NCBI RefSeq assembly: GCF_015221995.1
Contig: NZ_JADFFM010000002.1
Span: forward strand, 1,426,001 to 1,490,000
Direction of reading: 5' to 3'
Source: Mucilaginibacter boryungensis
GTDB lineage: Bacteria; Bacteroidota; Bacteroidia; Sphingobacteriales; Sphingobacteriaceae
DNA: 64,000 bases
The notes beneath the pieces are model-generated. The model worked only from the letters and a program-made list of their open reading frames with translations, did not search any database and had not been told where the DNA came from. Below are positions 26,286 to 58,758 of this stretch, one piece after another. Position numbers and translations under genes: made by a program. How positions within the stretch are numbered: position 1 is the first letter of the stretch; each line of letters opens with the position of its first letter.

Positions 26286-26625
26286 ATACTGTAAATACAA
26301 TAATGAAGGGATAAGTGTTTTTAGAAGTAAAAATCCACGTCATTACTGTAAGGATTTAGTAATCGGAAACAGGATAGCGTTTTTATTATTTGTTAAAATT
26401 CAATTCTGTAAGATCGGCGCTAATTGTGAAGGATAACTTTTTTTAAAAAGTTTAAACAGGGATCTTTTCGCAAAGCCATCAATCGGCTCCGTTCAGGGAA
26501 TATCAGCCTTGACAAGAATCACTTTTTAGGGTAACGGTAATCACTCCGGCAATGGGTATTAGTCCGGACTTTTGTCAGGCAGAAACCTGCACAAAAACCG
26601 GCAAAAAGCACACTTAATTTATGAA
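26286..26625. other. 340-bp spacer at left edge of the island
   Basis: No gene seen. It holds the Crp/Fnr-type palindrome at 26510-26521 and a weak -7 element GACTTTTG (26567-26574) for the universal stress gene. Base composition changes from AT-rich on the left to more GC-rich on the right. Confidence 0.5.
26510..26521 (+). promoter_or_regulatory. FixK-like box 1, TGACAAGAATCA
   Basis: Matches TGAYNNNNRTCA. Its centre is 58.5 bp before the last base of GACTTTTG (26567-26574), upstream of the stress gene at 26626. Confidence 0.6.
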
Positions 26626-27510: not shown

Positions 27511-27611
27511 TACGTTTTGCCCATTTTTACAGCAATGCCTGGAGCTATGTGCTTTTGGCATTTTTTATTTGACGACAGTCACAATTAAGGATAAAAACAT
27601 ATAATTTACCG

Positions 27612-27623
27612 TGACCCCTATCA
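27612..27623 (+). promoter_or_regulatory. FixK-like box 2, TGACCCCTATCA
   Basis: Flanked by G and C to give GTGA-N6-TCAC. Its centre is 59.5 bp before the last G of TACTTTTG (27670-27677), a full -7 match, ahead of the YceI gene at 27701. Confidence 0.65.
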
Positions 27624-30945: not shown

Positions 30946-31090
30946 ATGTTTTCTAAATCCAATGAATATGCGATCCGTGCGGCGATATACATCGCCGCCG
31001 AGGGCGCACGGGATAAAATGGTGGTGAGGTGTGCACCCACATCATCAGTTTAAAGGCTGGGGTAAACGGCGGGTTTTATCTGGACAACGG
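30946..31090 (+). pseudogene. remnant of an Rrf2-family regulator
   Basis: From the ATG at 30946 the frame reads MFSKSNEYAIRAAIYIAAEG, the N terminus of Rrf2-type regulators, and stops after 35 residues. Shifting one frame gives THIISLKAGVNGGFYLD, matching the 'KAG...NGGFYL' block that normally lies some 40 residues further on. About 25 residues are missing and the frame is shifted, so this is a decayed gene. The right part overlaps, antisense, the 3' end of the UspA gene at 31045. Confidence 0.65.
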
Positions 31091-32071: not shown

Positions 32072-32083
32072 TGATCATGGTCA
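32072..32083. promoter_or_regulatory. FixK-like box 3, TGATCATGGTCA, between divergent genes
   Basis: Matches TGAYNNNNRTCA. For the plus-strand gene at 32121 the centre is 35.5 bp before a T-rich TTTTTTTG (32106-32113). For the divergent stress gene no good -7 element is found at the standard spacing. Confidence 0.5.
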
Positions 32084-34885: not shown

Positions 34886-35029
34886 TCAGCTTTCACCACC
34901 CAAAGTTGCAGCGAAGCCACCGTCCGGAAAATGCGCAGGGTCATAAAATTTCCTGATCTCAGTACTGGCTTTTAAAGAGAAACCGCATTTCCGACACCGC
35001 ACAGGATCACGGTAAAAAGTGATGCGCAT
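34886..35029 (-). CDS. possible 47-residue CxxC small protein
   Basis: A minus-strand frame of 48 codons ending 24 bp before queD. It begins MRITFYRDPVRCRKCGFSLK, with one CRKCG pair, and ends GGFAATLGGES. The single CxxC could be half of a zinc site in a dimer. The ATG falls inside the 30-bp palindrome at 35011-35040, so the start would be under the bound regulator. It may be a real small gene or chance; no family is recognised. Confidence 0.35.
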   Translation of the reverse strand: MRITFYRDPVRCRKCGFSLKASTEIRKFYDPAHFPDGGFAATLGGES

Positions 35030-35040
35030 CACTTTTTACC
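35011..35040. promoter_or_regulatory. FixK-like box 4 in a 30-bp perfect palindrome
   Basis: Core TGATGCGCATCA at 35020-35031, extended to perfect symmetry from 35011 to 35040 (arms GGTAAAAAGTGATGC and its complement). The centre is 36.5 bp before the last base of CAACTTTA (35055-35062), a class II-like position for the stress gene at 35089. Confidence 0.7.
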
Positions 35041-40108: not shown

Positions 40109-40151
40109 CAAATTTACCCAAGGGGGTATCCCCAAAAAATGATGAAGGTCA
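40109..40151 (-). promoter_or_regulatory. ric promoter with FixK-like box 5
   Basis: On the minus strand the -7 element is TAAATTTG (40116-40109). TGATGAAGGTCA (40140-40151), flanked by AAAAA and TTTTT, is centred 36.5 bp upstream of its last base, a class II-like position. Confidence 0.65.
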
Positions 40152-40332: not shown

Positions 40333-40344
40333 TGACACAGATCA
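40333..40344 (+). promoter_or_regulatory. FixK-like box 6, TGACACAGATCA, of ccoI
   Basis: Its centre is 58.5 bp before the last G of CATTTTTG (40390-40397), which is 12 nt before the ccoI ATG. Preceded by AAAAAG. Confidence 0.65.
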
Positions 40345-40409: not shown

Positions 40410-42806
40410 ATGAAAATGACCGAAACTATACCAGCGGTAAAAACTAACTGCTATCACTGCGGTGACGCATGTGAAACTAACCTGTATCTGGCGGACAATA
40501 AACAGTTTTGCTGCCAGGGATGTCAAAATGTTTACCAGATCCTTTCAAGCAGCGGCCTGTGCAACTATTACCGGTATAACGACCACCCGGGTGCCACGCG
40601 CGATAAGCTGGATAAACGCTTCGAATACCTGGAGGAGCCATCTATCATCAACGAATTACTGGACTTTCATGATGACCGCATATCGATCATCACCTTATAT
40701 ATTCCGCATATCCATTGCAGCTCGTGCCTCTGGCTGCTGGAACAGCTGAGCCGCTTCAATCCCGGGATCCACTATGCAAGGGTCGACTTTTTAAAAAAAC
40801 AGCTGGTGGTCAGGTTCGACCACCAACAGATCAGCCTGCGCGGCTTGGTTGAATTGCTTTTTGATATCGGTTACGAACCGCTGATCAGCCTGCAGGATAT
40901 CATCAAGAAACAGCAAAAGACCGAAAAGAGTAACCTTGTGCAACGGATCGCTGTCTCCGGCTTCTGCTTTGGAAATGTCATGCTGTTCAGCTTCCCGGAG
41001 TATCTTGGCCTTTCGGTCTTTGAACAGACCTTTCGACATTTCTTTGGCTATATAAACCTGGCATTTACATTGCCGGTCGTGTTTTTCAGTGGCCGTGCAT
41101 ATTTTACCTCGGCCTGGAAAAACCTGAGAAAAAAGATACTGAATATCGATTTCCCGCTGGCCCTGGGTATCGCCGTCCTGTTTATCAGGACAGCGGCAGA
41201 AGTTCTGACCCATACAGGAGCTGGATTTGCAGATACGCTCTGCGGGCTGATTTTCTTCCTCCTGGTCGGCAAATTCGTACAGCAAAAGACGTATCATCAT
41301 ATCTCATTTGAACGAGATTATCGTTCTTTTTTCCCAGTAGCGGTTCAAACCCTTGAAAAAGGCATTGAAAAACCATTACCCTTATCGGAACTGCGCCCGG
41401 GTCACCGGATACTGATCCGCCACAACGAGATCATACCAGCCGATGCCATATTGTTAAAAGGAAATGCCCTGATCGATTTCAGTTTTGTGACCGGTGAGTC
41501 TGTTCCAGTGGGCAAGACCCTGGGCGAGATCATATATGCCGGTGGCCGCCAAACCAGTGAATCCATTGAATTGGAGGTCATAAAACCGGTTTCCCAAAGT
41601 TACCTGACCCAACTTTGGAATAATGAAGCCTTTACTCGCAAGCAGGATAACCGTATGCGGACATTTAACGAGACTGTCAGCAAATATTTTACGGTCATTT
41701 TGATCGTGATCGCCCTGACGGCACTGCTGGCCTGGGTGTTTACAGACCTGCGCCGTGGTATCGACGCCTTTACTGCTGTGCTCATCGTAGCCTGCCCTTG
41801 TGCACTGGCACTAAGTACGCCATTCACCATGTCGGCAGCGCTCAGTATTTTCGACCGCAACCTTTTTTATCTGAAAAACACCACGGTGGTTGAGCAGTTG
41901 GCAAAGATTAATACCATCGTATTGGATAAGACGGGCACCATTACCACCGGCAATGGCCGGAATACCGAGCTGCAAAGCCAGCTCAGCGATGGACAGGTCG
42001 GGCTAATTTACAGTGCCTGCGCAAACTCCACGCACCCGTTATCCCGAATGATCTGCTGCTATTTCGGCGAACAGGAACGATTGGCGGTCAGCGATTATAC
42101 CGAAATACCCGGCCAGGGCATCACCGCCAGGGTGAAGGGTCGCGAACTGAGGATCGGCAGCGGCAAACTGCTGTTCGGAAATTATCACGAGGCCGCCGAT
42201 ATGACCCGCGTACACCTGATGATTGATGGCCAGTACCTGGGGTATTTTGGATTTAAACATGAATACCGCCAGGGTATGGAACAGGTAAGCGCCCTCGAAC
42301 CTGACTACCAGCTCTACCTGCTGTCGGGGGACCAGGATCAGGAAAAACACGAATTGCTCCAGTATTTTGGGGAGGGCAACCGTATGCACTTCGGGCAGTC
42401 GCCGCAGCAAAAGCTCGATTTTATAGCAGCAATACAACAGCAAGGTAAAAAGGTCATGATGCTTGGCGACGGACTGAACGATTCCGGGGCATTACGTCAA
42501 AGTGATCTGGGCGTCGCCGTCACCGACAACGTTAATAACTTTTCACCGGGAAGCGACGCGATACTCGACGGCCGGTCGTTTGAAAAACTGCCGTTATTTC
42601 TGCGATTCTCTAAGGATACAGTGATCATTATTCATTTATCTTTCTTAATCTCCCTGACCTATAATATTATCGGCCTGTCTTATGCGGTCACCGGAAAACT
42701 TTCCCCGCTGATCGCAGCGATACTAATGCCGCTAAGCACTGCGACCATTATTTCATTTACTACACTGGCCACCCACTTTACTGCTAAAAGGAGAAAATTG
42801 TTATGA
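40410..42806 (+). CDS. ccoI: cbb3-oxidase copper P-type ATPase CcoI/FixI
   Basis: A 798-residue P1B-type ATPase that supplies copper for cbb3 oxidase assembly. The N terminus has a Cys-rich metal-binding module (CYHCGDAC ... CCQGC), then an HMA domain with CSSC in place of CxxC-typical residues. The core motifs are TGES, CPC (ACPCALALS), DKTGT and GDGLNDSGAL, and HP in THPLSRM. About eight membrane segments. It overlaps ccoS by ATGA and is preceded by FixK-like box 6. Confidence 0.95.
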   Translation: MKMTETIPAVKTNCYHCGDACETNLYLADNKQFCCQGCQNVYQILSSSGLCNYYRYNDHPGATRDKLDKRFEYLEEPSIINELLDFHDDRISIITLYIPHIHCSSCLWLLEQLSRFNPGIHYARVDFLKKQLVVRFDHQQISLRGLVELLFDIGYEPLISLQDIIKKQQKTEKSNLVQRIAVSGFCFGNVMLFSFPEYLGLSVFEQTFRHFFGYINLAFTLPVVFFSGRAYFTSAWKNLRKKILNIDFPLALGIAVLFIRTAAEVLTHTGAGFADTLCGLIFFLLVGKFVQQKTYHHISFERDYRSFFPVAVQTLEKGIEKPLPLSELRPGHRILIRHNEIIPADAILLKGNALIDFSFVTGESVPVGKTLGEIIYAGGRQTSESIELEVIKPVSQSYLTQLWNNEAFTRKQDNRMRTFNETVSKYFTVILIVIALTALLAWVFTDLRRGIDAFTAVLIVACPCALALSTPFTMSAALSIFDRNLFYLKNTTVVEQLAKINTIVLDKTGTITTGNGRNTELQSQLSDGQVGLIYSACANSTHPLSRMICCYFGEQERLAVSDYTEIPGQGITARVKGRELRIGSGKLLFGNYHEAADMTRVHLMIDGQYLGYFGFKHEYRQGMEQVSALEPDYQLYLLSGDQDQEKHELLQYFGEGNRMHFGQSPQQKLDFIAAIQQQGKKVMMLGDGLNDSGALRQSDLGVAVTDNVNNFSPGSDAILDGRSFEKLPLFLRFSKDTVIIIHLSFLISLTYNIIGLSYAVTGKLSPLIAAILMPLSTATIISFTTLATHFTAKRRKLL

Positions 42807-42964
42807 GCATTATTTATTTCCTCATCGGCTGCAGCGTCCTGCTGGCACTGGTTTTTCTCGGCGCTTTTTTTTGGGCGCAGCGAACAGGCCAGAACGATGA
42901 CCTGTATACGCCATCCATGCGTATCCTGCTGGAAGATGAACAACCCGAAGAGAAAGAAAAGTGA
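42803..42964 (+). CDS. ccoS: cbb3-oxidase assembly protein CcoS
   Basis: A 53-residue protein whose ATG overlaps the ccoI stop. One N-terminal membrane segment (IIYFLIGCSVLLALVFLGAFFWA) is followed by the CcoS signature QRTGQNDDLYTPSMRILLED. It is needed for cofactor insertion into the CcoN subunit. Its TGA stop (42962-42964) is also the left half of FixK-like box 7. Confidence 0.93.
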   Translation: MSIIYFLIGCSVLLALVFLGAFFWAQRTGQNDDLYTPSMRILLEDEQPEEKEK

Positions 42965-42973
42965 CCTAAATCA
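42962..42973 (+). promoter_or_regulatory. FixK-like box 7, TGACCTAAATCA, of ccoNO
   Basis: The palindrome is extended as AAAAGTGA/TCACTTTT. Its centre is 58.5 bp before the last base of TAGTTTTA (43019-43026), which lies 24 nt ahead of the ccoNO ATG. Confidence 0.7.
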
Positions 42974-43050
42974 CTTTTAAAAACAACTGTCATCATTCTG
43001 TCACTCCAAGCCCCTTTATAGTTTTACACCCATAAAAAAGACAATACTTT

Positions 43051-45180
43051 ATGCAGCCGGAAAAATTTTATTATGACAACAAGATCGTCCGAAATTTTGG
43101 TATCGCTACCGTAATTTGGGGCATTATTGGTATGACGGTAGGCCTCATCGCCGCTATCCAGTTATATCATCCTGGTGCTAACATGCACAACCAGTTTACT
43201 ACCTTCGGGCGTATCCGGCCACTGCATACCAATGCGGTGATCTTCGCTTTTGTGGGAAACGCCATTTTTATGGGTGTTTATTATTCCCTGCAGCGCTTGC
43301 TGAAAGCGCGTATGTTCAGCGACTGGCTGAGTAATATCCATTTTTGGGGCTGGCAGCTGATCATTCTTTCCGCGGTAATTACACTTCCCTTAGGGCTAAC
43401 CACTTCCCACGAATATGCGGAACTGGAATGGCCGATAGATATCGCCATTACGGTGATCTGGGTGGTATTCGGCTGGAATATGTTCGGTACGATCATCAAA
43501 CGCCGTGAGCGGCATTTGTATGTGGCCATCTGGTTTTATATCGCCACGTTTGTCACTATTGCCGTATTACATATCGTTAACTCATTCGAGTTACCGGTTT
43601 CTGCTTTTAAAAGCTATATGGTTTACGCAGGTGTACAGGATGCACTGGTGCAATGGTGGTACGGCCACAACGCAGTTGCGTTTTTCCTGACCACGCCTTA
43701 CTTGGGCATGATGTATTATTTCCTGCCTAAAATGGCTAACAGGCCAATCTATTCTTATAAATTAAGTATCCTGCATTTTTGGGCGCTGATATTTATTTAT
43801 ATCTGGGCAGGCCCTCACCACTTATTGTATACCACCTTGCCGGGTTGGGCACAATCATTAGGTGTGGCTTTCTCTATTATGCTGCTTGCACCAAGCTGGG
43901 GCGGTATGATCAACGGCCTGCTTACCCTGCGCGGCGCGTGGGACAAGGTGCGTGATGATGTGGTCCTGAAATTTATGGTTGTTGGCTTAACCGGTTACGG
44001 TATGGCCACGTTTGAAGGGCCGATGCTTTCTCTAAAACAGATCAATAGTATCGCCCACTTCAGCGACTGGATTATTGCCCACGTGCACGTTGGTGCACTG
44101 GCCTGGAACGGGTTTTTAACTTTCGCTATCTTATACTGGCTGATTCCGCGCATTTATAAAACGGAACTTTATTCGAAAAAACTGGCCGCTTTTCACTTCT
44201 GGATCGGTACGCTGGGCATCATCTTTTACGCAGTACCAATGTACTGGGCTGGCTTTACCCAAAGCCTGATGCTGAAAGAGTTTACCGCTGAGGGGATGCT
44301 GAAGTATCCTAACTTCCTGGAAACCACCTTACGGATCATCCCGATGCACGTAATGCGGTCAATAGGCGGTAGCATTTACCTGCTGGGCGTAATTGTGATG
44401 GCCTTTAACCTGGTCAAAACAGCTAAGCAAGGTAGCCTTGTAGCTGATGAAGCCGCCCAGGCGATGCCACTGGAACCGGTAGCTACTGTTGCAAAAGAAG
44501 GCAGCTGGCACCGTCGCCTGGAGCGCAGGCCTATACAGTTCATGGTGTTGTCGCTGGTTGTTATTCTGATCGGCTCGATGATTGAGTTGATGCCGACGCT
44601 GACGATCTCCTCTAACATACCTACGATTGCCAGTGTAAAACCGTACACGCCGCTGGAATTGCAGGGCCGGGACATTTATATCCGGGAAGGCTGTTCTAAC
44701 TGTCACTCTCAAACTGTCAGGCCTTTCCGTTCTGAAACAGAGCGCTATGGCGAATACAGTAAAGCCGGAGAATTTGTTTATGACCACCCTTTTCTGTGGG
44801 GATCCAAACGTACCGGGCCTGACCTGGCTCGCGAGGGTGGTAAATATGGTAATGCCTGGCATTATAATCACCTGATGGATCCACGGCTGATGTCGCCCGG
44901 CAGTATAATGCCGGAATATGGCTGGTTGCTGACCCAGAAATTGGATACCAGCACCACCGCAGCAAAGATAAGGGCGATGCGAACCCTGGGTGTGCCATAT
45001 GCGAAAGGTTATGATCAGCAAGCCAATGCTGACCTGGAGAAACAGGCTAAAGAGATTTCCGATAATCTTTATATCGACCATATAAAAGTTAAAAAAGATA
45101 AGGAGATCGTCGCCATCATAGCTTATCTGCAAAGACTGGGAACCGACATTAAAGCAAATAAAACCGCCAATAATAATTAA
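43051..45180 (+). CDS. ccoNO: fused cbb3-oxidase catalytic and cytochrome c subunits (CcoN-CcoO)
   Basis: A 709-residue fusion. Residues 1 to about 470 are the 12-segment CcoN catalytic subunit with its heme and Cu-B His residues (RPLHTNAV, HNAVAFF, HHLLYT, HFSDWIIAHVHVGAL). After a linker and one anchor the CcoO part carries the heme c site CSNCH at 548-552 and the axial-Met region SPGSIMPEY. CcoN-CcoO fusion is common in Bacteroidota. It is the core of the high-affinity proton-pumping terminal oxidase and is followed by ccoQ after 4 bp. Confidence 0.96.
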   Translation: MQPEKFYYDNKIVRNFGIATVIWGIIGMTVGLIAAIQLYHPGANMHNQFTTFGRIRPLHTNAVIFAFVGNAIFMGVYYSLQRLLKARMFSDWLSNIHFWGWQLIILSAVITLPLGLTTSHEYAELEWPIDIAITVIWVVFGWNMFGTIIKRRERHLYVAIWFYIATFVTIAVLHIVNSFELPVSAFKSYMVYAGVQDALVQWWYGHNAVAFFLTTPYLGMMYYFLPKMANRPIYSYKLSILHFWALIFIYIWAGPHHLLYTTLPGWAQSLGVAFSIMLLAPSWGGMINGLLTLRGAWDKVRDDVVLKFMVVGLTGYGMATFEGPMLSLKQINSIAHFSDWIIAHVHVGALAWNGFLTFAILYWLIPRIYKTELYSKKLAAFHFWIGTLGIIFYAVPMYWAGFTQSLMLKEFTAEGMLKYPNFLETTLRIIPMHVMRSIGGSIYLLGVIVMAFNLVKTAKQGSLVADEAAQAMPLEPVATVAKEGSWHRRLERRPIQFMVLSLVVILIGSMIELMPTLTISSNIPTIASVKPYTPLELQGRDIYIREGCSNCHSQTVRPFRSETERYGEYSKAGEFVYDHPFLWGSKRTGPDLAREGGKYGNAWHYNHLMDPRLMSPGSIMPEYGWLLTQKLDTSTTAAKIRAMRTLGVPYAKGYDQQANADLEKQAKEISDNLYIDHIKVKKDKEIVAIIAYLQRLGTDIKANKTANNN

Positions 45181-45184
45181 CACC

Positions 45185-45373
45185 ATGTTTAAGCAATTCA
45201 CAGAAAATATATCCGGGCACCAGGTTTACCTGCTGTCTTCACTGGGCATCTTCCTGGTATTCTTTATCGTTGTGGCATTCCTGCTGCTGCGCATACGGAA
45301 GGCCCACATCGATCACATGAGCAGCCTGCCGTTACAGGACGGGGATGAAATTCAACCTTCAAATCTTTCTTAA
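45185..45373 (+). CDS. ccoQ: cbb3-oxidase small subunit CcoQ
   Basis: A 62-residue protein with a short start, one membrane segment (LSSLGIFLVFFIVVAFLLLRI) and a charged tail (RKAHIDHMSSLPLQDGDE). Size, context and layout fit CcoQ, which stabilises the oxidase. Situated between ccoNO and ccoP, with only 2 bp before ccoP. Confidence 0.82.
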   Translation: MFKQFTENISGHQVYLLSSLGIFLVFFIVVAFLLLRIRKAHIDHMSSLPLQDGDEIQPSNLS

Positions 45374-45375
45374 CC

Positions 45376-46278
45376 ATGAAGAAGCTATTAATTATACCGA
45401 TATGCCTGTTATCTATTCAGCAGGCAAGCGCAAAAAGCGACAGTTTGATTAGCGGAAGCATGCAAAATTATATCGGCTATGGCCTTATTGTAGGTATGTT
45501 GTTGCTATTTGTTGTTGCCTTCCTTGTTTTAATCCGTGCCTTTAAAGCAATGGAATATACCATCCTGCGTCTTCAGGGCCACACCCCGGCGGAGATCGCA
45601 GAAATGCGGTATCCGTCTAAAGAGGCCACAACTGAACCCAAAGTAAAAGAAAATAAAAAGCTGCTGAAATTACTTTCCCTGAAGCCGATGTCGGAAGAGA
45701 AGTCTATCCTGATCGAACATGATTATGATGGCATTCAGGAACTGGATAACCCGACACCAGCCTGGTTTATGTGGTTGTTTTACGGTACAATCGTTTTCGG
45801 ATTTTGCTACCTGCTGATCTATCACGTATTCGGTATAGGACAACTACAGTACGACGAGTATAAAACTGAGGTAGCCCAGGCGGACATTGCTAAAAAAGAA
45901 TACTTAAGTAAGTCGGCTAACCGCGTAGACGAGAATACGGTGAAACTGGTTGCCGATCCTGCGGTGTTAGCATCGGGTAAGGCTATCTTCAGTCAAACCT
46001 GCGCGCCCTGCCATGGTGCTAATGCTGAGGGAAATGTTGGGCCGAACTTAACAGATGAGTATTGGCTGCATGGCGGTAAGATCAATGACCTGTTTAAAAC
46101 TATTAAGTATGGTGTAGCTGCCAAAGGGATGCCGACCTGGGAAAAGCAGCTTTCTCCTAAACAGATCGCCGATGTGGCGAATTATATCGAATCTTTAAAA
46201 GATAGCCACCCGGCTAATGCCAAAGCACCGCAAGGGAACAAAGAAGAAGAAACCGGTCAAAAAATGGCCTCAAATTAA
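45376..46278 (+). CDS. ccoP: cbb3-oxidase cytochrome c subunit CcoP
   Basis: A 300-residue protein with an apparent signal peptide, two membrane segments and a periplasmic cytochrome c domain containing one heme site, CAPCH (C209-H213), and MPTWEKQLSPKQIADVANYIESL. Proteobacterial CcoP has two hemes; the single-heme form is typical of Bacteroidota. It passes electrons from soluble cytochromes to CcoO. The N-terminal part (MLLLFVVAFLVLIRAFKAMEY) resembles the family extension of this phylum. Confidence 0.92.
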   Translation: MKKLLIIPICLLSIQQASAKSDSLISGSMQNYIGYGLIVGMLLLFVVAFLVLIRAFKAMEYTILRLQGHTPAEIAEMRYPSKEATTEPKVKENKKLLKLLSLKPMSEEKSILIEHDYDGIQELDNPTPAWFMWLFYGTIVFGFCYLLIYHVFGIGQLQYDEYKTEVAQADIAKKEYLSKSANRVDENTVKLVADPAVLASGKAIFSQTCAPCHGANAEGNVGPNLTDEYWLHGGKINDLFKTIKYGVAAKGMPTWEKQLSPKQIADVANYIESLKDSHPANAKAPQGNKEEETGQKMASN

Positions 46279-46284
46279 AACGAA

Positions 46285-47658
46285 ATGAGTGGATTATTAG
46301 CGGAGAAGGAAACAGATGAACGAAAATGGATCTATCCACTCATTCGTAAAGGCCTGCTGTATAAATGGCGGTCGGCTATCAGTTATGTATACCTGATCTT
46401 CTTTTTTACCGGCCCCTTTATCCGAATCGGCGGCCAACCCCTATTGCTGCTCAATTTTATGGAGCGGCACTTTGTGATCCTCGGCCAGGCTTTCTGGCCG
46501 CAGGATATTTTTCTCTTCATGCTGGCCTCGCTCGTGTTTCTGGTTTGTATCGTATTGTTCACGATCGCCTTCGGCCGCATCTTCTGCGGCTGGATATGTC
46601 CGCAAACCATTTTTATGGAAATGGTTTTCCGTAAGATCGAGGAATGGATCGAAGGCGATGCGCATCAACGTAAAAAACTGGATGCCGGCCCCTGGACCAA
46701 TGTGAAGATCAGGAAAAAAGTGGTCAAGCATATCGCCTTCCTGCTGGTTTCTTTCCTGATTGCCAATACTTTCCTGGCCTACCTGATCGGCAGTGGAAAC
46801 CTGATCAGGATCGCCACCGAACCGCTTACACTACACTGGATCGGCTTTGCCAGTATCTGGGTATTTACCCTGGTGTTTTATCTGGTCTATAGCCAGGTGC
46901 GGGAGATCGTTTGTACGGTGATCTGCCCTTACGGCCGCTTGCAAAGCGTACTAATTGATGAGCATACACTGGTTGTTGCTTATAATGATGTGCGGGGTGA
47001 ACCGCGTGGAAAGCTGCAAAAGGTAGCCGATCCTTTTAATTTGAAAGGCGATTGCGTGGACTGCGGCCTGTGCGTGTCGGTTTGCCCTACCGGTATCGAT
47101 ATTCGTAAAGGGACGCAGCTTGAGTGCGTTAATTGTACCGCTTGTATCGATGTTTGCGATGAGGTTATGACCAAGATCAACAAACCAACCAACCTGATAG
47201 GCTTCTATTCAGAGAACATGATCCGGGTAAAAGAAAAGCCTTCCTTCACTTTAAGAATGAAGGGCTACGCGGCGGTGATCACGGTGATGGTTGGTGTCTT
47301 ATGCTATTTTATCTTTAGCCGCAGCGACATGGACATGACCGTGATGCGCGGCGCGGGTACCCTTTATCAGGAACAGTCCGGTGGTTATATCAGTAATATT
47401 TACAATGCGGAGATCATCAATAAAACCAATGAAAACCGGAAGATCGCCATCCGTGCAGACGATCCGGCTATCAGGATCAAATATATTCAGGCACCGGGAA
47501 TTGTGGCCAAAGGCGGCATGGTGAAAACCATGTTCTTTATCGAAGTGCCGGCAACACATATCCACACGGCCAAAACAGATATCCACCTGCAGTTATATGC
47601 GGGGCAGCAGCTTAAACAAACCATTAGTACTACATTTGTTGGACCTGTAAACGATTAA
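46285..47658 (+). CDS. ccoG: cbb3-oxidase assembly ferredoxin CcoG/FixG
   Basis: A 457-residue membrane protein with about five segments. FGRIFCGWICPQTIF and the 4Fe-4S pattern CVDCGLCVSVCPTGIDI followed by CVNCTACIDVCD are present, then an Ig-like FixG C-terminal domain. CcoG is proposed to reduce Cu2+ for delivery to cbb3 oxidase. Two base pairs before ccoH. Confidence 0.95.
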   Translation: MSGLLAEKETDERKWIYPLIRKGLLYKWRSAISYVYLIFFFTGPFIRIGGQPLLLLNFMERHFVILGQAFWPQDIFLFMLASLVFLVCIVLFTIAFGRIFCGWICPQTIFMEMVFRKIEEWIEGDAHQRKKLDAGPWTNVKIRKKVVKHIAFLLVSFLIANTFLAYLIGSGNLIRIATEPLTLHWIGFASIWVFTLVFYLVYSQVREIVCTVICPYGRLQSVLIDEHTLVVAYNDVRGEPRGKLQKVADPFNLKGDCVDCGLCVSVCPTGIDIRKGTQLECVNCTACIDVCDEVMTKINKPTNLIGFYSENMIRVKEKPSFTLRMKGYAAVITVMVGVLCYFIFSRSDMDMTVMRGAGTLYQEQSGGYISNIYNAEIINKTNENRKIAIRADDPAIRIKYIQAPGIVAKGGMVKTMFFIEVPATHIHTAKTDIHLQLYAGQQLKQTISTTFVGPVND

Positions 47659-47660
47659 TT

Positions 47661-48080
47661 ATGAATTGGGGAAAAGGATTAATATTAGGAATGTCCGTAT
47701 TTATGCTCTTCATCCTGAGCATGTGTTTTTACATGTTCCGGGTCCCGGCAGATGAATACGATCATCAATACTATGAAAAGGGGCTCGGCTTTAACGCTGA
47801 TTTTGCCAAAGAAAGGCAGGTTGTCACAGACCATGCTGAGCCAAAGGTCACCGTGACGGTCAATACGGTTATCGTTGCATTTACCGCCCCGGCCACTGGC
47901 ACCGCTAAGTTTATCCGTCCTTCAAGTGCATCACAGGATAAAGGTTATGCCATAAACACCCGCACCCAAAATACCGTTGCTTTACCCGTGGGCCAGCTGG
48001 CCAAGGGCCGTTGGCATATACAGTTGGAATGGCAAAGCGGTAAGAAGCAGTATTTATATCAACAAGAACTTAGCTTATAA
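47661..48080 (+). CDS. ccoH: cbb3-oxidase assembly protein CcoH/FixH
   Basis: A 139-residue protein: one N-terminal membrane segment, the FixH block YDHQYYEKGLGFNADFAKERQ, and a beta-rich periplasmic domain. It helps assembly of the CcoN subunit. Its stop overlaps the next gene's start by one base (TAATG at 48078-48082). Confidence 0.9.
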   Translation: MNWGKGLILGMSVFMLFILSMCFYMFRVPADEYDHQYYEKGLGFNADFAKERQVVTDHAEPKVTVTVNTVIVAFTAPATGTAKFIRPSSASQDKGYAINTRTQNTVALPVGQLAKGRWHIQLEWQSGKKQYLYQQELSL

Positions 48081-48769
48081 TGTCGGCCAACCAGCTTGCC
48101 TTTTATATTGGCCTTTTCGGTAGCGTGCATTGCATCGGCATGTGCGGGCCACTGGCCTTTGCGGTACCCAGCTTTCATAACGGCTGGTGGCGCGTGATAG
48201 CTGATAAACTGATTTACAATTTTGGCCGGGTGCTGAGTTATACCCTCCTGGGGTTTTTGATCGGCTTGCTGGGTAAGCAATTATGGCTGGCCGGCTTACA
48301 GCAAGGTGTCAGTATTATCAGCGGGGTGTTAATTATCATCGCCGGTTTCTCCAGGTTGTTTAAAATGAGGGTAAGTCAAAACAGTTTCATGCCGGTACTG
48401 CTTTCGCCCATTCAAAAATTGATCCGGTATGCGCTCAACCATCAGTTGGGCCATTTTATTGTAGGCATCCTAAATGGTTTCCTTCCCTGCGGCTTTGTCT
48501 ATTTGGCTTTAGTGGGTGCTGTAAATACCTCATCGCCGGTTGCCTCGGCGCAATATATGTTTTGCTTTGGGGCGGGTACATTTCCTTTAATGCTGCTGGC
48601 TACCATCGGCTCAGGCTATATAGGGCCGGTATTTCGGCGCCGGATCAATAAAGGGATGCCGTTCCTCATGATTTTTTTAGGATGCTGGTTCTTATTACGC
48701 GGCCTTAGCCTCGATATTCCTTACCTTAGCCCTGCTAAGCAACAGCAAGGCGTTGCCATTTGTCATTAA
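48080..48769 (+). CDS. SafE/TauE-like membrane protein, cbb3-linked
   Basis: A 229-residue protein with about six membrane segments and two candidate metal motifs, HCIGMCGP near residue 15 and LPCGFVY near 145. This 'urease accessory/SafE-like' type often follows ccoH in Bacteroidota and is presumed to handle copper for cbb3 oxidase. The role is from context and the Cys/His motifs, not proven. Confidence 0.8.
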   Translation: MSANQLAFYIGLFGSVHCIGMCGPLAFAVPSFHNGWWRVIADKLIYNFGRVLSYTLLGFLIGLLGKQLWLAGLQQGVSIISGVLIIIAGFSRLFKMRVSQNSFMPVLLSPIQKLIRYALNHQLGHFIVGILNGFLPCGFVYLALVGAVNTSSPVASAQYMFCFGAGTFPLMLLATIGSGYIGPVFRRRINKGMPFLMIFLGCWFLLRGLSLDIPYLSPAKQQQGVAICH

Positions 48770-51395: not shown

Positions 51396-52763
51396 TCAGA
51401 TTGCCATGCTGAATAACTGGGTGGCGGGTTTATCCGCCCAAAGACGGGCGTCAAAACATAAACAGATATTTCTTAAAAATCGCTTCCCGGTCTCGGTGAC
51501 CTGCAAACCGTGATCTGACAAGTAAACCAGTCCGTCCGCTTCCAGCGGCTCTAATCGTTTCAACACTTCAGGTAATACGCAGGCCATCAGTTCAGCATCC
51601 CAGTAGGTGCGTTGTTTGCACATAATGTCGAGGATATGGCGGCGGATTTGCAAATCTTCATCGCTTAAGCCATGCCCCTTAAAAACCGGCAATTCTCCCT
51701 GGTTGACTTGCAACAAATATTCCTCTAAGGTTTTGACATTCTGGGCAAAGGCGTACCAGCTATCGCTGATCGAAGAAACGCCTAATCCCACCAGCAGCTG
51801 GGTATGCTGCTCGGTATAGCCCATAAAGTTGCGGTGCAGTCTGCCATCCCTTTCAGCAGCGAACAGTTCATCAGCGGGCAGCGCAAAATGGTCCATCCCA
51901 ATTTCCTGGTAGCCGTAGCTCAGTAGCAAGATGCGGCCGGCCTCCTGCAGTTTGCCCTTTTGTTCTGGGTTAGGAAGGTCCGCTTCCGTAAAACGTCGCT
52001 GGCCCGGTTTGATCCAGGGCACATGGGCATAACTATAGAAGGCAATACGGTCCGGTCTCAACCCGGCCACGATATTCATGGTATTGATCAGCCCTTCCAG
52101 GTTCTGGTGCGGTAAGCCGTAGATCAGGTCGTAATTGATGGAAGTGTATCCAATGCCGCGTGCCTGGGTGGTTACCGTCTGGACCTGCTCTACGCTTTGG
52201 TGCCGGTTGATAATGAACTGTACCCGCGGGTCGAAGTCCTGTATCCCGAGGCTCAGCCTGCGGAATCCCAGATCGAAAAGCACCTGCAGATGGTCAGTTG
52301 TAGTATTGGCGGGATGGGCCTCGAAGCTGAATTCCGCACTGGGATGGACACAGGCATCTTTTAGGATGCCACTAATCAGTAAGCGCAGGTTTTGCGGGCT
52401 GAAAAAAGTAGGCGTACCACCGCCCAAATGCAGTTCCCGGATAACCGGTGTGCCAGCAAAAATTTGAAGGTACAGCGCCCATTCTTTTAGCACGGCTGCA
52501 ATATAAGGTTCTTCTACACCGTGATTTTTGGTGATACGGGTATTACAGCCGCAATAAGTACAAAGGCTTTCACAGAAAGGCAGGTGAATATACACACTTA
52601 TGCCAGATACTGCATTGCTTTCCGTAAAGGAAAAACGCACGGAATCTTCCCAGCTTTGGCGGTTAAAAGTGTTCGGGTCCCAATAAGGCATGGTTGGGTA
52701 ACTGGTATAGCGGGGCACGGGTACATTGTATTTATCGGCCAGTGCTTTATAGTTTTGTTCCAT
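51396..52763 (-). CDS. hemN: oxygen-independent coproporphyrinogen III dehydrogenase
   Basis: A 455-residue radical-SAM enzyme that converts coproporphyrinogen III to protoporphyrinogen IX without O2. The cluster site CESLCTYCGCN follows VPRYTSYPTMPYW, and HLGGGTPTF, SLGIQDFDPRVQ and INYDLIYGLPHQ are the usual SAM-enzyme segments. The ATG at 52761-52763 begins 2 bp after the dehydrogenase stop, so the two are co-transcribed. It keeps heme synthesis running at low oxygen. Confidence 0.95.
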   Translation of the reverse strand: MEQNYKALADKYNVPVPRYTSYPTMPYWDPNTFNRQSWEDSVRFSFTESNAVSGISVYIHLPFCESLCTYCGCNTRITKNHGVEEPYIAAVLKEWALYLQIFAGTPVIRELHLGGGTPTFFSPQNLRLLISGILKDACVHPSAEFSFEAHPANTTTDHLQVLFDLGFRRLSLGIQDFDPRVQFIINRHQSVEQVQTVTTQARGIGYTSINYDLIYGLPHQNLEGLINTMNIVAGLRPDRIAFYSYAHVPWIKPGQRRFTEADLPNPEQKGKLQEAGRILLLSYGYQEIGMDHFALPADELFAAERDGRLHRNFMGYTEQHTQLLVGLGVSSISDSWYAFAQNVKTLEEYLLQVNQGELPVFKGHGLSDEDLQIRRHILDIMCKQRTYWDAELMACVLPEVLKRLEPLEADGLVYLSDHGLQVTETGKRFLRNICLCFDARLWADKPATQLFSMAI

Positions 52764-52765
52764 AA

Positions 52766-53806
52766 TCAGTTCTTTAGTTGGGCTACGCCATCTGATATAA
52801 CAGGGGTTGTTTTGCAGGTTTGGCCGCATGCGCAGGCTTTGCCTACGCATTTATTTTGTTGCCACAGGTCGAGACTGCGGATGGTCTGGTCGGCTATCTG
52901 CTGGAGCGCTTCCTTGGTCAGGTAAGCCTGGTGTGGGGTGACCAGCACATTGGGGTGGCCCAATAACTGCAGCAATAAATGATCCTTTACCGGGTCGTTA
53001 CCATGGTTCTCGAAGAATAGCCCTTTTTCGAATTCGTAGACATCCAGGCCAAGGTAACCAACCTTTTTTTCTTCCAGCGCGGCCAGTACATCTGCCGTTT
53101 GCAGCAGTTGTCCGCGGGAAGTATTGATCAGCATAACGCCGGGCTTCATTTGCTGAAGCGACTCACTGTTGATCATATACCGGGTTTCTTCCGTTAAAGG
53201 AACGTGAATAGAGATGATATCCGCCAGGCGGTAAAGATGTTCCAGGGAAACCGGCTTCACGTAACGGAAATTACGCGGGAACTTTTCGTCATAAGCGACC
53301 AGCTGACAGCCTAAGCCATGATAAATGGCCGCAGCGGCTTGTCCGGTGCTGCCCATGCCAATGATGCCTACGGTCTTGCCGGCAAAATTGAAGCCGACGA
53401 GGTCATCATTGCGGAAATCGAAATCATGGGCGTGATGGTCGGCCTTAACGATCTGGCGGTTTAGTGCAAAAGCAAGGGCCAGGGAATGTTCAGCGATCGC
53501 CTGAGGGGAGTAAGATGGAACACTGGCTAATTTAATGCCATAAGCCGCAACAGCAGCCTTGTCGATATGATCAGTACCGGAGGATCTGGTAACGATATAA
53601 CGTACCCCCAAACTGGCCAGCTTTTCCACCACAGGTGCAGAAACATCATCATTAGTAAACACGATCACGGCATCCTTCCCACTGGCGTACAATGCCGTAC
53701 CAATGGAAAGGGGGTTGGATATCAGTGTAATATCGTGCTTCTTCTGGTTAGCCTTAGCCAGGTATTCTTTTTCAAATGGCTTAATACTGAATGCAACTGC
53801 TTTCAT
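52766..53806 (-). CDS. D-lactate-type 2-hydroxyacid dehydrogenase with Cys-rich tail
   Basis: A 346-residue NAD-dependent dehydrogenase. The Rossmann motif GIIGMGSTGQAAA, the catalytic Arg in NTSRGQLL, Glu in VYEFEKGL and His in TPHQAYLT match the D-LDH/LdhA subgroup. It probably makes D-lactate from pyruvate. The last ~25 residues are unusual: NKCVGKACACGQTCKTT holds four Cys. Its promoter has a full -7 element TAGTTTTG and box 9 at the standard distance; hemN follows by 2 bp. Confidence 0.88.
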   Translation of the reverse strand: MKAVAFSIKPFEKEYLAKANQKKHDITLISNPLSIGTALYASGKDAVIVFTNDDVSAPVVEKLASLGVRYIVTRSSGTDHIDKAAVAAYGIKLASVPSYSPQAIAEHSLALAFALNRQIVKADHHAHDFDFRNDDLVGFNFAGKTVGIIGMGSTGQAAAAIYHGLGCQLVAYDEKFPRNFRYVKPVSLEHLYRLADIISIHVPLTEETRYMINSESLQQMKPGVMLINTSRGQLLQTADVLAALEEKKVGYLGLDVYEFEKGLFFENHGNDPVKDHLLLQLLGHPNVLVTPHQAYLTKEALQQIADQTIRSLDLWQQNKCVGKACACGQTCKTTPVISDGVAQLKN

Positions 53807-53824
53807 CGATTTGTTTATTTCAAA

Positions 53825-53889
53825 CAAAACTACCCCAAAGCAGCCACCCTGGGAATGAGCGGAGTCAGCTCAAAATATGATGTGTATCA
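53825..53889 (-). promoter_or_regulatory. FixK-like box 9 with -7 element of the D-lactate dehydrogenase gene
   Basis: On the minus strand TAGTTTTG (53832-53825) is the -7 element, and TGATGTGTATCA (53878-53889) is centred exactly 58.5 bp upstream of its last base. The outer TCA/TGA (53887-53889) doubles as the stop codon of the regulator gene. Confidence 0.7.
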
Positions 53890-54939
53890 GTTTTTCATTT
53901 TAGCCAGTTTCTCCGGCTCCAGGATCGTGATCAGGCTGCCTTTTTTCTCTATCAGGCCCTCATCCTTAAAGTCGGATAGTGTCCGGCTGACCGTTTCAGT
54001 TGCCATACCTGCCATTGCTGCCAGGTCCTCCCGGGTGATCTTAAAGCCATCCTTTTCTCCGGAAGGCTGACGATATAGCCGCAGCATCGCCTCGGCCATA
54101 CGCTTACGCACGGAATGATAAGCCAACTGCATCAACTGTTCTTCTTTTTCACGGATGTTATCCGCCAGCAGCTTAATGAACTCGCGGCCAACCTCCGGTG
54201 AAGCATGCAGCAATTGCTCCAGTTGGTCCCGAGGGATCATGCAAAGTGCACAGTCTTCAAGCGCGGTAGCGGTATCGGTATAAGGTTCATTGGTCAGCAT
54301 GGCATGAATGCCCAGATACTCGTCATTGCTGTAAATGCCTGTCATCAGTTCACGCCCATCCTCGGCCAGGCGGATCGTTTTTACCTTACCGCTCAGCACC
54401 AGGTATAGCCCCGCACCCTTATCGCCGTCATAATAAATAACCTGGTTCTTTTTAAAGAGCCGGCTTTTGCGTTCCTGGATGATCCTCTTTAATTCCGCCA
54501 GTCCGTCATTCTTGGAGATCAGGTTGCCCAGTGAATCCAAAGAGCGGCTGTAAAAATGCTGATGCACCTCTTTTTTCTTCAAACGGCTTTCGATCGCATT
54601 CAGCAGGTCAAGGTCGTCAAAAGGTTTGGTCAGGTAATCGTCCGCACCCATTTCCATGCCTTTGCGCAGGTCCACGCGTTCGGCTTTGGCGGTCAGGAAA
54701 ATAAAAGGGATCGCCGCGGTTTCCGCATTTTTATGCAGGATATGCAACACACCGTAGCCGTCCAGTTCGGGCATCATAATGTCGCACAGGATAATATCGG
54801 GCAAATGGGTGGTCGCCAGGTCAACGCCGGCTTTACCGTTGGCGGCATCGTACACTTCATAGCCGGCCAGGCCAAGGATCTCCACGACATTGTCGCGGAT
54901 ATCGTTATTATCTTCAATGATCAGTACTTTCTTTTTCAT
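53887..54939 (-). CDS. response regulator with receiver fused to Crp/Fnr (FixK-like) output
   Basis: A 350-residue regulator. Residues 1-120 form a complete receiver: E9/D10 acidic pair, phospho-acceptor D53 (ILCDIMMPELDG), T in FLTAKAE and K in LTKPFDD. Residues about 150-260 are a cyclic-nucleotide-binding-type barrel (GAGLYLVLSGKVKTIRLAEDGRE), and 290-345 are a Crp helix-turn-helix with recognition helix MATETVSRTLSDF. The E-x-x-S-R pattern is that of FNR/FixK and reads TGA half-sites. No FNR Cys cluster, so the input is phosphorylation. It overlaps the kinase by 4 bp and is the probable master of the island. Confidence 0.93.
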   Translation of the reverse strand: MKKKVLIIEDNNDIRDNVVEILGLAGYEVYDAANGKAGVDLATTHLPDIILCDIMMPELDGYGVLHILHKNAETAAIPFIFLTAKAERVDLRKGMEMGADDYLTKPFDDLDLLNAIESRLKKKEVHQHFYSRSLDSLGNLISKNDGLAELKRIIQERKSRLFKKNQVIYYDGDKGAGLYLVLSGKVKTIRLAEDGRELMTGIYSNDEYLGIHAMLTNEPYTDTATALEDCALCMIPRDQLEQLLHASPEVGREFIKLLADNIREKEEQLMQLAYHSVRKRMAEAMLRLYRQPSGEKDGFKITREDLAAMAGMATETVSRTLSDFKDEGLIEKKGSLITILEPEKLAKMKN

Positions 54940-56123
54940 ATCAATGGGATAGTGATCTTAAATAAAGTGCCCTGGTTGACGTCGCTCTTGAAAGCGATCT
55001 CGCCATTCATCAGGCGGGTATAGCGGGAAACAATATTCAGGCCTAATCCCGTTCCGGGGATGTTGCCTGTATTATGCGCCCGGAAAAATGCTTCGAACAA
55101 ATGTTTCTGGTCGGCTTCAGGGATACCGATGCCGTTATCCCGAATCGTGATGACGCAGGCCTTGTCGTTGATTTCCGTATTAAATTCAATAAAGGTATTC
55201 TCTCCCGAATACTTGATGGCATTGCCGATCAGGTTGATCACGCAGTTCTTGATCAGGTTCGGATCCAGGTTCACCATACTGAGCGTGCCGGTATGCTGGT
55301 AAATAATGTTCTGATTTTGCTTGGCGACCAACTGCAACTCCTCAGTCATTTCCTCGGACATTTTGACCAGGTCAAAATTCTGGCTGGTGGCTTCCACCTT
55401 TCCCGCCTCCAGCTTTTCCAGCGACAGAAAATCATTGAGGATATTGGTCAGGTTGCCTACCGAGTTCTTGATCTTGGCGACATGCTTGGTAATATTTGCG
55501 TTGTCAAAAGGCTGTGCATATTTTTCTATCAGCGATGAGGAAAGCTGAATTGCGCTGAGTGGCGTCCGGAATTCATGCGAGGCCATTGATACAAACCGGC
55601 TTTTCAATTGTCCGAGTTCCTTTTCCTTTTCCAGGGAGGAACTCACTTCTTCCTTGGCTAACTGTAATTCCAGGATGGCGTTCTTCAGGTTTTGTGTCCG
55701 GTTCTCCACCAACTCTTCCAGGTGCGCGGCATATTCTTTCAATTGCTCTTCAGCTTCTTTCTCGCGCGACAGGTCATGTATAAAACCGGTAAATATCTTC
55801 CGTCCCGGAAAGGGCACTTCGCTGACCCCTAAACGGAAAGGAAATACGGAGCCATCTTTACGAAGGCCTTTAACCTCCCGGCCGATACCGATAATATGCG
55901 GCTCGTGCGTACGTTGGTAGCGCTCTATATATTGGTCATGCTGGTCCCGGTCGGGGGGCGGCATCAATACGGATACGTTTTTACCGATAACCTCTTCCGG
56001 GCCGTACTGGAATAATTTACAGGCTGCCGGATTGATTGTTTCAATATGTCCGCGCCCATCAATGGTGATGATCCCATCGATCGCATTTTCTATGATTGCT
56101 TTTAATAGTGCGGCATTTTCCAT
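54936..56123 (-). CDS. FixL-like heme-PAS histidine kinase
   Basis: A 395-residue sensor kinase without membrane segments. The PAS domain (about 6-118) aligns with the rhizobial FixL heme domain: H62 at the proximal heme ligand (FixL His200), R68 (R206), H76 and I77 (H214, I215), and R82 in IGIGR (R220, which signals O2 loss). A coiled coil follows, then the HisKA box with H183 (SMASHEFRTPL) and the ATPase (NLIGNAIKYS, RDNGIGIP, GTGLGLNI). It should phosphorylate the overlapping Crp-type regulator at low O2. The promoter has its own box (56210). Confidence 0.9.
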   Translation of the reverse strand: MENAALLKAIIENAIDGIITIDGRGHIETINPAACKLFQYGPEEVIGKNVSVLMPPPDRDQHDQYIERYQRTHEPHIIGIGREVKGLRKDGSVFPFRLGVSEVPFPGRKIFTGFIHDLSREKEAEEQLKEYAAHLEELVENRTQNLKNAILELQLAKEEVSSSLEKEKELGQLKSRFVSMASHEFRTPLSAIQLSSSLIEKYAQPFDNANITKHVAKIKNSVGNLTNILNDFLSLEKLEAGKVEATSQNFDLVKMSEEMTEELQLVAKQNQNIIYQHTGTLSMVNLDPNLIKNCVINLIGNAIKYSGENTFIEFNTEINDKACVITIRDNGIGIPEADQKHLFEAFFRAHNTGNIPGTGLGLNIVSRYTRLMNGEIAFKSDVNQGTLFKITIPLI

Positions 56124-56156: not shown

Positions 56157-56221
56157 CAAATATTAGGAATAAGGATCACAAAAAACATAATATAATTCAG
56201 TTAAAAAAGTGACCTGTGTCA
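56157..56221. promoter_or_regulatory. FixK-like box 10 between kinase and mini-UspA genes
   Basis: TGACCTGTGTCA (56210-56221), flanked by AAAAAAG and TTTTTT. For the kinase on the minus strand its centre is exactly 58.5 bp before the last base of AATATTTG (56164-56157). For the divergent gene, CAGGTTTG (56269-56276) lies 60.5 bp away. Confidence 0.65.
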
Positions 56222-57304: not shown

Positions 57305-57369
57305 TGACCAATATCATATTCCCGGTTGTTCCGCATCAGTATTTGGGAACGGCCGGGATTCTAATTTTG
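57305..57369 (+). promoter_or_regulatory. FixK-like box 11 with -7 element of the acetyl-CoA hydrolase gene
   Basis: TGACCAATATCA (57305-57316) is centred exactly 58.5 bp before the last G of TAATTTTG (57362-57369), a full -7 match 19 nt ahead of the ATG at 57389. Confidence 0.72.
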
Positions 57370-58746: not shown

Positions 58747-58758
58747 TGATGAGGATCA
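58747..58758 (+). promoter_or_regulatory. FixK-like box 12, TGATGAGGATCA
   Basis: Centre 58.5 bp before the last base of GAGCTTTA (58804-58811), a weak -7 element, 23 nt before the ATG at 58835. Confidence 0.6.

Follow-up and report, generated by a model that had tools for sequence, protein, structure and literature searches.

A predicted low-oxygen switch made of a FixL-like kinase and a receiver-Crp fusion regulator near the cco genes of Mucilaginibacter boryungensis

How low oxygen is sensed and the cbb3 oxidase induced in aerobic Bacteroidota appears to be little described, and a locus of Mucilaginibacter boryungensis raises the question of whether one heme sensor kinase and one regulator might do both. 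The locus lies in a 64,000-nucleotide stretch of contig NZ_JADFFM010000002.1 (positions 1,426,001 to 1,490,000; here called the window) and consists of two overlapping genes, one encoding a FixL-like sensor histidine kinase (HK) and the other a response regulator (RR) in which a receiver is fused to a Crp/Fnr-type protein; a cco (cbb3 oxidase) cluster lies in the same window. A first-pass annotation, made from the sequence alone, had described the pair as a collapsed form of the rhizobial FixL-FixJ-FixK cascade. We propose that HK-RR is a two-component low-oxygen switch in which RR itself would be the direct activator of cco, of an operon formed by a D-LDH-like gene (dldh) and hemN, of usp-like genes, and of its own operon, and we give this reading a probability of about 0.75. 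Direct low-oxygen activation by the fused regulator is, as a prediction, well supported by the comparisons below. New here are the spread of the pair, a de novo palindrome with its promoter positions, and an operator base that tracks a residue of the RR helix.

Anatomy of the kinase and the regulator

The 4-bp overlap between the HK and RR genes reported earlier was confirmed (ATGA, 54936-54939), as was the fusion of a complete receiver (D53) to a cNMP-like barrel and a Crp helix-turn-helix (Pfam Response_reg, cNMP_binding, and HTH_Crp_2). The receiver keeps D10, D53, T83, and K105, and the kinase gene adjoins, as expected of a two-component pair. The cAMP phosphate-binding cassette reads FGELSIFDPGPRTSS in MtbCRP versus LGIHAMLTNEPYTDT in RR, where its Glu and Arg are not kept, and the RR translation has no Fnr-type Cys-rich N terminus; the receiver is therefore the obvious signal input of RR. 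With a Crp/Fnr fold, an E-T-V-S-R helix, and no Fe-S Cys motif, RR resembles FixK; it is not a stand-alone protein without a receiver, and it scored 79.4 bits against the NCBIfam FixK equivalog NF050806, below the 300-bit cutoff. Nor does it have the LuxR-type helix-turn-helix of a FixJ, its output being cNMP_binding plus HTH_Crp_2. An AlphaFold2 single-chain model of RR (predicted local distance difference test [pLDDT] score, 82; predicted template modeling [pTM] score, 0.54) did not confidently predict domain packing. The 50 Foldseek matches listed for this model were Crp/Fnr structures, and no PDB sequence combining a receiver and Crp was found among the best 60 of 312 matches. RR is the only full-length receiver-Crp match in its own nearly complete 4.88-Mb genome.

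HK consists of a PAS domain, a coiled coil, and a kinase, the last with a HisKA and HATPase_c core and its H-box (Pfam; H183). Heme-PAS structures of BjFixL were its top PDB matches (1dp6, E value of 5.2e-33). The first-pass annotation had named five heme-site residues and phosphoacceptor H183, and all six stood when read by position. The five align with H, R, H, I, and R of BjFixL, which we take to be His200, Arg206, His214, Ile215, and Arg220 with their heme-site roles. The positions of I215, L236, and I238 in BjFixL, presumably heme-pocket residues, are occupied by I77, L98, and V100 in the HK alignment. HK scored 169.7 bits against the NCBIfam FixL equivalog NF041777, below the 850-bit cutoff. 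Its AlphaFold2 single-chain model (pLDDT, 79; pTM, 0.49) runs from PAS through a long helix to the dimerization and histidine phosphotransfer domain and the catalytic domain, and its 50 best Foldseek matches were mainly histidine kinases, including chimeric LOV-FixL kinases; no FixL heme-PAS entry was among these 50, a point against our reading. The residue and PDB sequence matches support the assignment of the HK PAS domain as a FixL-type heme PAS. HK would thus be predicted to bind heme and O2, and, by analogy with FixL, its kinase would be active at low O2.

Spread of the pair and linkage to cco

A survey of receiver-Crp fusions, which the first-pass annotation had suggested as a check, found RR in 154 of 201 genomes of the family (match threshold here and in the phylum, E value of ≤1e-40) and thus went beyond a local oddity. 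RR was also matched in 64 of 395 genomes of the phylum, where 8 of the 64 were receiver-only alignments and the other 56 were all of the same class. Named relatives came from Pedobacter, Arcticibacter, Daejeonella, Flavobacterium, Dyadobacter, Pontibacter, Chitinophaga, and others; the view beyond the phylum consisted of the best 80 matches of one search. Loci L109 (labeled Bifidobacterium) and L130 (labeled Alphaproteobacteria) were treated as mis-binned contigs. A related kinase gene lay directly upstream of RR in 52 of 55 loci, and one of the three misses was cut by a contig end. Near-duplicate genomes are included in this count and in the de novo palindrome, heme-residue, and HK, ccoNO, ccoI, and hemN site counts below; unique sites were used only where so stated, and tree and PAS counts refer to 132 distinct sequences.

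These 132 RRs fell into two types by recognition helix, 81 with E-x-x-S-R (S-type, as in the window) and 51 with E-x-x-I-R (I-type), which form the two sides of a single branch (SH-aLRT support, 98). S-type pairs of Dyadobacter (L106) and Flavobacterium (L089, L099, L101, and L104) nest among those of Sphingobacteriaceae in the tree, which suggests horizontal transfer of the S-type pair into both genera.

Of the named loci, 62 were 20 kb or longer, and in 25 of these (16 among 38 S-type and 9 among 24 I-type loci) cco was no more than 10 kb from RR, compared with a chance proximity of ~0.6% per locus by a rough length estimate. RR and ccoNO also occurred together: of the 201 family genomes, 139 had both, 15 had RR only, 10 had ccoNO only, and 37 had neither (Fisher P value of 2.5e-19, which ignores kinship and genome incompleteness). 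Within the genus, the corresponding numbers were 28, 5, 0, and 2.

A palindrome upstream of HK-RR and cco

The canonical FNR/FixK box was not enriched. In the window, TTGAYNNNNRTCAA occurred 6 times versus 8.6 expected (at most one mismatch), and TTGAY-N4-RTCAA formed 27 palindromes in the genome versus 30 in a reversed-pattern control. This box was dropped as the operator candidate and replaced by a de novo search for inverted repeats upstream of orthologues, which returned TGAC-N4-GTCA (71 versus 1.1 expected), TGAT-N4-ATCA (92 versus 3.4), and GTGA-N6-TCAC (39 versus 1.1), giving the consensus (R)TGAY-N4-RTCA(Y). The window contains TGAYNNNNRTCA 19 times versus 2.9 expected, a number reached in 0 of 100 shuffles, and 15 of the 19 sites lie outside listed genes; 14 of these precede a gene start by 16 to 125 bp, and the remaining one does so by 206 bp. 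In the whole genome, TGAC-N4-GTCA was below its reversed-pattern control (19 versus 56) and RTGAY-N4-RTCAY was in modest excess (72 versus 52); the palindrome signal is therefore one of clustering and position and not of genome-wide excess.

Of the 97 S-type loci, 71 had a site upstream of HK, compared with a mean of 2.1 and a maximum of 6 in 100 shuffles; of the 43 I-type loci, 27 had one (shuffles, mean of 0.9 and maximum of 6). Among S-type loci, a site preceded ccoNO in 26 of 27 and ccoI in 14 of 15; among I-type loci, the numbers were 10 of 11 and 4 of 5.

Position of the palindrome in the promoter

In Flavobacterium psychrophilum, the -7 box of Bacteroidetes promoters, TAnnTTTG, spans positions -12 to -5 (PMC9723704; this and all other papers cited by PMC number are drawn on as excerpts). 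This box lay 51 or 29 bp after the palindrome center in 62 and 19, respectively, of 122 site-box pairs, although 38 of the 62 pairs at 51 bp come from the dldh promoter alone, a point against our reading. With dldh excluded, the box stood at 51 and 29 bp in 14 and 13 of 224 unique S-type sites (background, 0.18 per position) and in 8 and 2 of 59 unique I-type sites (background, 0.10 per position); many sites have the exact box at neither distance. With a box at 51 or 29 bp, the palindrome is centered near -63 or -41. Where a relaxed box stood at 50 to 52 bp, dldh again left out, 45 of 62 S-type promoters and 10 of 14 I-type promoters had a second TCA at +25, exactly 22 bp past the TCA of the first operator, and the matching TGA was present in 11 and 9 of them. 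Judged by its sequence, this is a tandem operator, often a half-site, at 22-bp spacing.

These positions bear on the sign of regulation. Crp/Fnr activators use class II and class I operator positions. RR could instead be a repressor relieved by low O2, or could be active unphosphorylated with HK as its phosphatase; the activation sign is unreadable from sequence, and Crp/Fnr proteins can repress. The centers at about -41 and -63, however, lie near the class II and class I activator positions and clear of the promoter core, and we consider repression or such an inverted switch improbable.

Which protein binds the palindrome

If RR binds these sites, its helix should leave a mark on them. Among unique sites upstream of HK, the base before TGA was G in 71, A in 68, C in 18, and T in 9 S-type sites, compared with A in 41, C in 27, T in 8, and G in 6 I-type sites. 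Sites upstream of ccoI and ccoNO showed G in 40, A in 27, C in 13, and T in 2 (S-type) and C in 17, A in 13, and G and T in 1 each (I-type). The outer base thus tracks residue 318 of RR (G or A with Ser, C or A with Ile), as binding by RR predicts.

Several observations weigh against this conclusion and against RR control of cco in general. The covariation is a single phylogenetic contrast on one branch, and its Fisher P value of 6e-10 counts sites, not events. Four window sites out of the 19 fall within listed genes, no ccoNO match was found in 15 of the 154 family genomes with RR (not all of them complete), and a site before hemN itself was seen in only 1 of 43 S-type and 0 of 3 I-type loci; a wider look at 510 bases upstream of hemN found sites in 2 of 4 I-type loci, and the S-type counts are consistent with hemN being served from a site farther upstream. 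The genome also encodes three other Crp/Fnr proteins with Cys-rich N termini and E-T-V-F-R helices, and these could bind TGA cores. cco and the palindromes might then be controlled mainly by such Fnr-type proteins, HK-RR being a mere target or the controller of a smaller set. The gene for one of the three adjoins a nos-like cluster that contains ATGAT-type sites, and the gene for one is itself preceded by a site.

Genomes that lack RR allowed a comparison. We examined 9 of the 10 ccoNO-only genomes (G008, whose match was cut, was left out) and 11 chosen RR-bearing controls from outside the genus; distances are approximate, counted from the match start. None of the 9 RR-less genomes had the exact proximal site upstream of ccoNO, whereas 5 of the 11 controls did (Fisher P value of 0.04). 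All 9 RR-less genomes instead have an ATGAT-type palindrome 224 to 277 bp before the ccoNO start, and in both RR-less genomes of genus g5 it lies 29 bp before a TAnnTTTG box, a point in favor of control by Fnr-type proteins. Also on that side, two RR-bearing g5 genomes have the ATGAT-type palindrome in place of the proximal site, the exact site is absent in 4 of the 11 controls, and 7 of the 9 genomes without RR have a near-site close to the ccoNO start once one mismatch is allowed. We read this as two site types, GTGAY-like sites that would serve RR and ATGAT-like sites that would serve an Fnr-type protein. Control mainly by the Fnr-type proteins nevertheless seems unlikely to us, in view of an outer operator base that follows the helix residue of RR itself at both HK and cco, of RR-less genomes whose ccoNO site is farther upstream and of the ATGAT type, and of the linkage and co-occurrence of RR and cco. 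An attempt to exclude other Fnr-type proteins by way of I-type genomes that lack them gave no clean exclusion: several have no L005-like protein, yet other E-x-x-S/T/I-R Crp proteins are present.

Operators, linkage, co-occurrence, and helix-operator covariation together support the prediction that HK-RR controls the neighboring cco genes.

Sensor modules and origin of the pair

The FixL pattern (His, Ile/Val, and Arg) is kept in the kinase beside 71 of 77 distinct S-type RRs versus 2 of 48 distinct I-type RRs. Most of the other I-type pairs have a PAS domain of another kind in the adjoining kinase. In six loci of about 6.3 to 10 kb (L121, L132 to L135, and L140; Hymenobacteraceae and one unassigned locus), the adjoining kinase has a receiver in place of the PAS domain (by Pfam for L132 and by sequence pattern for L121, L133 to L135, and L140), and a separate upstream protein bears one or two FixL-type PAS motifs; this protein is a histidine kinase by Pfam in all four loci scanned (L121, L132, L133, and L140). 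The gene order of this split relay is FixL-PAS protein, receiver-kinase, and receiver-Crp, and L148 has the same order without the FixL motif. The separate FixL-PAS proteins rule out the simple rule that an I-type RR means no FixL PAS.

The sensor also decides what the switch responds to. The HK heme might sense nitric oxide, carbon monoxide, or redox state, or the PAS domain might be heme free, making the pair a general stress or nitric oxide switch. Sites with the same core occur at a RIC-like gene of the window and, elsewhere, at nos- and NnrS-like genes, and most I-type pairs have the other PAS kind. All five heme-site residues occur in only 62 of 99 S-type kinases; several partners have lost some (YSRVK in L054 and QHDIR in L106). 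HK of the window itself, in contrast, keeps all five, together with the pocket hydrophobics of BjFixL, and its cco and hemN neighbors have low-O2 functions. A signal other than O2 therefore appears quite unlikely for this pair, and we retain O2 as the predicted signal.

A constant receiver-Crp protein with a variable sensor argues against descent from FixL-FixJ-FixK by simple loss. The "collapsed cascade" of the first-pass annotation was accordingly not borne out: the receiver-Crp family also pairs with other PAS kinases and with two-kinase relays. In a family tree that is unrooted, independent assembly from similar modules looks likelier than collapse by loss.

Predicted target genes in the window and beyond

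The complete ccoIS-NOQP-GH set noted earlier was verified, with ccoN and ccoO fused, a ccoI-type ATPase, and a DsbD_2 protein at the end (Table 1). Nearly all ccoNO matches listed in the family sample span the whole fused length. hemN (oxygen-independent coproporphyrinogen III oxidase) scored above its NCBIfam cutoff, and the D-LDH-like gene reached no equivalog cutoff.

Table 1. Features of the window (coordinates count from its first nucleotide; operators are predicted)
Feature	Position	Strand	Details
HK	54936-56123	minus	Soluble FixL-like sensor histidine kinase, 395 aa (open reading frame list, Pfam); PAS 6-117, HisKA 174-241 with H183, HATPase_c 287-394 (Pfam)
FixL-type PAS domain of HK	55773..56108	minus	H62, R68, H76, I77, R82
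RR	53887-54939	minus	Receiver-Crp/Fnr fusion response regulator, 350 aa (open reading frame list, Pfam)
Receiver domain of RR	54589..54927	minus	D10, D53, T83, K105 (Pfam)
cNMP-binding-like barrel of RR	54205..54462	minus	Glu and Arg of the MtbCRP cAMP cassette not kept
Crp-type helix-turn-helix of RR	53899..54102	minus	Recognition motif E315-T-V-S-R319
Operator TGACctgtGTCA	56210..56221		Upstream of HK-RR, center 92 bp before HK start; predicted autoregulation site; also touches start of a doubtful 114-aa open reading frame (56216, plus)
Operator TGATgtgtATCA	53878..53889		Upstream of D-LDH-like gene, hemN behind; overlaps RR stop codon; second TCA 22 bp on, TAnnTTTG 51 bp on
Operator TGACctaaATCA	42962..42973		Upstream of ccoNO; begins in last ccoS codon
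Operator TGACacagATCA	40333..40344		Upstream of ccoI
Operator	40140..40151		Upstream of hemerythrin/ScdA_N (RIC-like) gene 39105-40091
Operator	26510..26521		Upstream of usp-like gene at 26572 (named by eye)
Two operators	27570..27623		Upstream of YceI-like gene at 27701 (named by eye)
Operator	32072..32083		Between divergent usp-like (31045-31992) and pyridoxamine-oxidase-like (32121) genes (named by eye)
Operator	35020..35031		Upstream of usp-like gene at 35077 (named by eye)
Operator	57305..57316		Upstream of acetyl-CoA hydrolase/transferase gene at 57389
ccoI, ccoS, ccoNO (fused), ccoQ, ccoP, ccoG, ccoH, DsbD_2 protein	40410..48769	plus	Probable target cluster
ccoS	42803-42964		Named by eye
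ccoNO (fused)	43051-45180	plus	Single open reading frame, COX1 and FixO
ccoQ	45185-45373		Named by eye
hemN and D-LDH-like gene	51396..53827	minus	Directly downstream of RR; probable target operon

Two window proteins without a Pfam match were also seen. Orthologues of the 593-aa protein encoded at 37306-39087 (minus strand) often adjoin HK-RR or cco, and 19 of 26 S-type copies have a palindrome upstream; it is a candidate low-oxygen protein. The 138-aa protein encoded at 58835-59251 (plus strand) lies behind a palindrome at 58747 and has a 126-aa look-alike, judged by eye, in a second motif island of the genome (L172:13830-14210).

In this second island (C1:1.132-1.160 Mb; L171 and L172), TGAY-N4-RTCA sites cluster around genes for usp, a BON protein, two cation P-type ATPases, a glycogen phosphorylase-like protein, phosphoketolase, acetate kinase, and an RNA-processing-type metallo-hydrolase. 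The regulon would thus probably extend well beyond cco, to usp-like, YceI-like, D-LDH/hemN, and acetyl-CoA hydrolase genes and the second island. The island also encodes a stand-alone receiver (L172:11882-12244; C1:1154881 in the genome) that is 49% identical to the receiver of RR and might act on HK as a FixT-like partner or serve as a phosphate sink. Palindromes in the nos-like cluster (L173; C1:721000-740900; nos and NnrS named by eye) are mostly of the ATGAT type, and this cluster also holds an Fnr-type gene (Cys-rich N terminus, E-T-V-F-R helix) and Rrf2-like and RIC-like genes.

Proposed mechanism

At low oxygen, the heme of HK would be free of O2, and HK would phosphorylate D53 of RR. 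Phospho-RR would then bind (R)TGAY-N4-RTCA(Y), mostly either near -63 together with a half-operator near -41 or near -41 alone, and would recruit RNA polymerase at TAnnTTTG promoters; receivers of neighboring RR dimers may cooperate across the 22-bp spacing. In this way RR would turn on ccoI, ccoNO, the dldh-hemN operon, several usp-like genes, and its own HK-RR operon. In F. psychrophilum, cbb3 and heme-synthesis genes are up under oxygen limitation (PMC9723704). A broader proposal, to which we give somewhat less than an even chance, is that the Bacteroidia have a family of one-step low-oxygen master regulators independent of FixJ and FixK, with tandem operators, touching receivers, and exchanged sensor modules.

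If HK-RR acts as proposed, a widespread group of aerobic bacteria would have an oxygen regulon whose sensor, regulator, operator, and promoter geometry can all be named. A Crp/Fnr activator would be under direct phosphorylation control, with phosphorylation replacing cAMP or an Fe-S cluster as the signal, and the pair is compact enough that it might be used in Bacteroidota to switch expression in response to oxygen in one step.

Comparison with known systems

No description of an HK-RR-type pair was found among the literature matches listed, which were limited to Creative Commons-licensed PMC papers, nor in the excerpts of two papers on Bacteroidetes and FixL (PMC9083452 and PMC8510549). The receiver-Crp architecture itself may well be present in censuses of response regulator outputs.

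FixL-FixJ-FixK of rhizobia and Caulobacter likewise has a heme-PAS histidine kinase, a final regulator of the Crp/Fnr fold, and cco (fixNOQP) as a target. Here, in contrast, the operon has no FixJ or separate FixK, receiver and Crp are in one protein, and the kinase has a single PAS domain; HK-RR probably works in one step where the rhizobial cascade takes three. Alongside HK, the adjoining partner is receiver-Crp and not a FixJ (receiver-LuxR), the rest of the genome not having been searched for FixJ. The first-pass annotation held that oxygen sensing goes directly to a FixK-type activator without FixJ. Direct receiver-Crp coupling and an operon free of a FixJ-type gene stand; "FixK-type" in the strict sense does not, given an operator without a leading T, TTGAT boxes that are not enriched, and scores below the NCBIfam equivalog cutoffs.

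FxkR is an OmpR-type regulator. The hFixL-FxkR-FixK system of Rhizobium etli and R. leguminosarum is wired without FixJ (PMC7888657, PMC4999443), and FxkR sites are predicted upstream of a cco operon (PMC4999443), a precedent for direct control of cco by a response regulator. It differs from HK-RR in its hybrid kinase, GTTACA-N4-GTTACA boxes, and separate FixK gene (PMC7888657, PMC4999443). The FixK/FnrN box consensus, TTGANCNNGATCAANG, has a leading T, unlike the operator described here (PMC4999443). NmpRSTU of Myxococcus xanthus is a multicomponent control of an oxygen utilization regulon, comparable to the split relay of Hymenobacteraceae, with an NtrC-like output unlike that of RR (PMC11841059). 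FixT of Caulobacter is a single-domain receiver that acts on the FixL pathway (PMC7078487); the lone receiver of the second island resembles it, its link to HK being a candidate only.

In the predicted breadth of its targets, HK-RR invites comparison with two further systems. FNR and Anr of Proteobacteria are Crp/Fnr proteins that activate cco, hemN, usp, and fermentation genes at low O2 in one step. RR would do the same with a similar target set; unlike them, it has no Cys-rich N terminus, and its signal would arrive through a heme kinase and a receiver. DosS and DosT of Mycobacterium tuberculosis are heme sensor kinases that feed one regulator, DosR, of usp-rich hypoxia genes, as HK would feed RR; they differ in that the heme sensor is a GAF domain and the regulator is of the NarL type. 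In its predicted content, the HK-RR regulon resembles the Anr or DosR hypoxia regulons more than a nitrogen fixation cascade.

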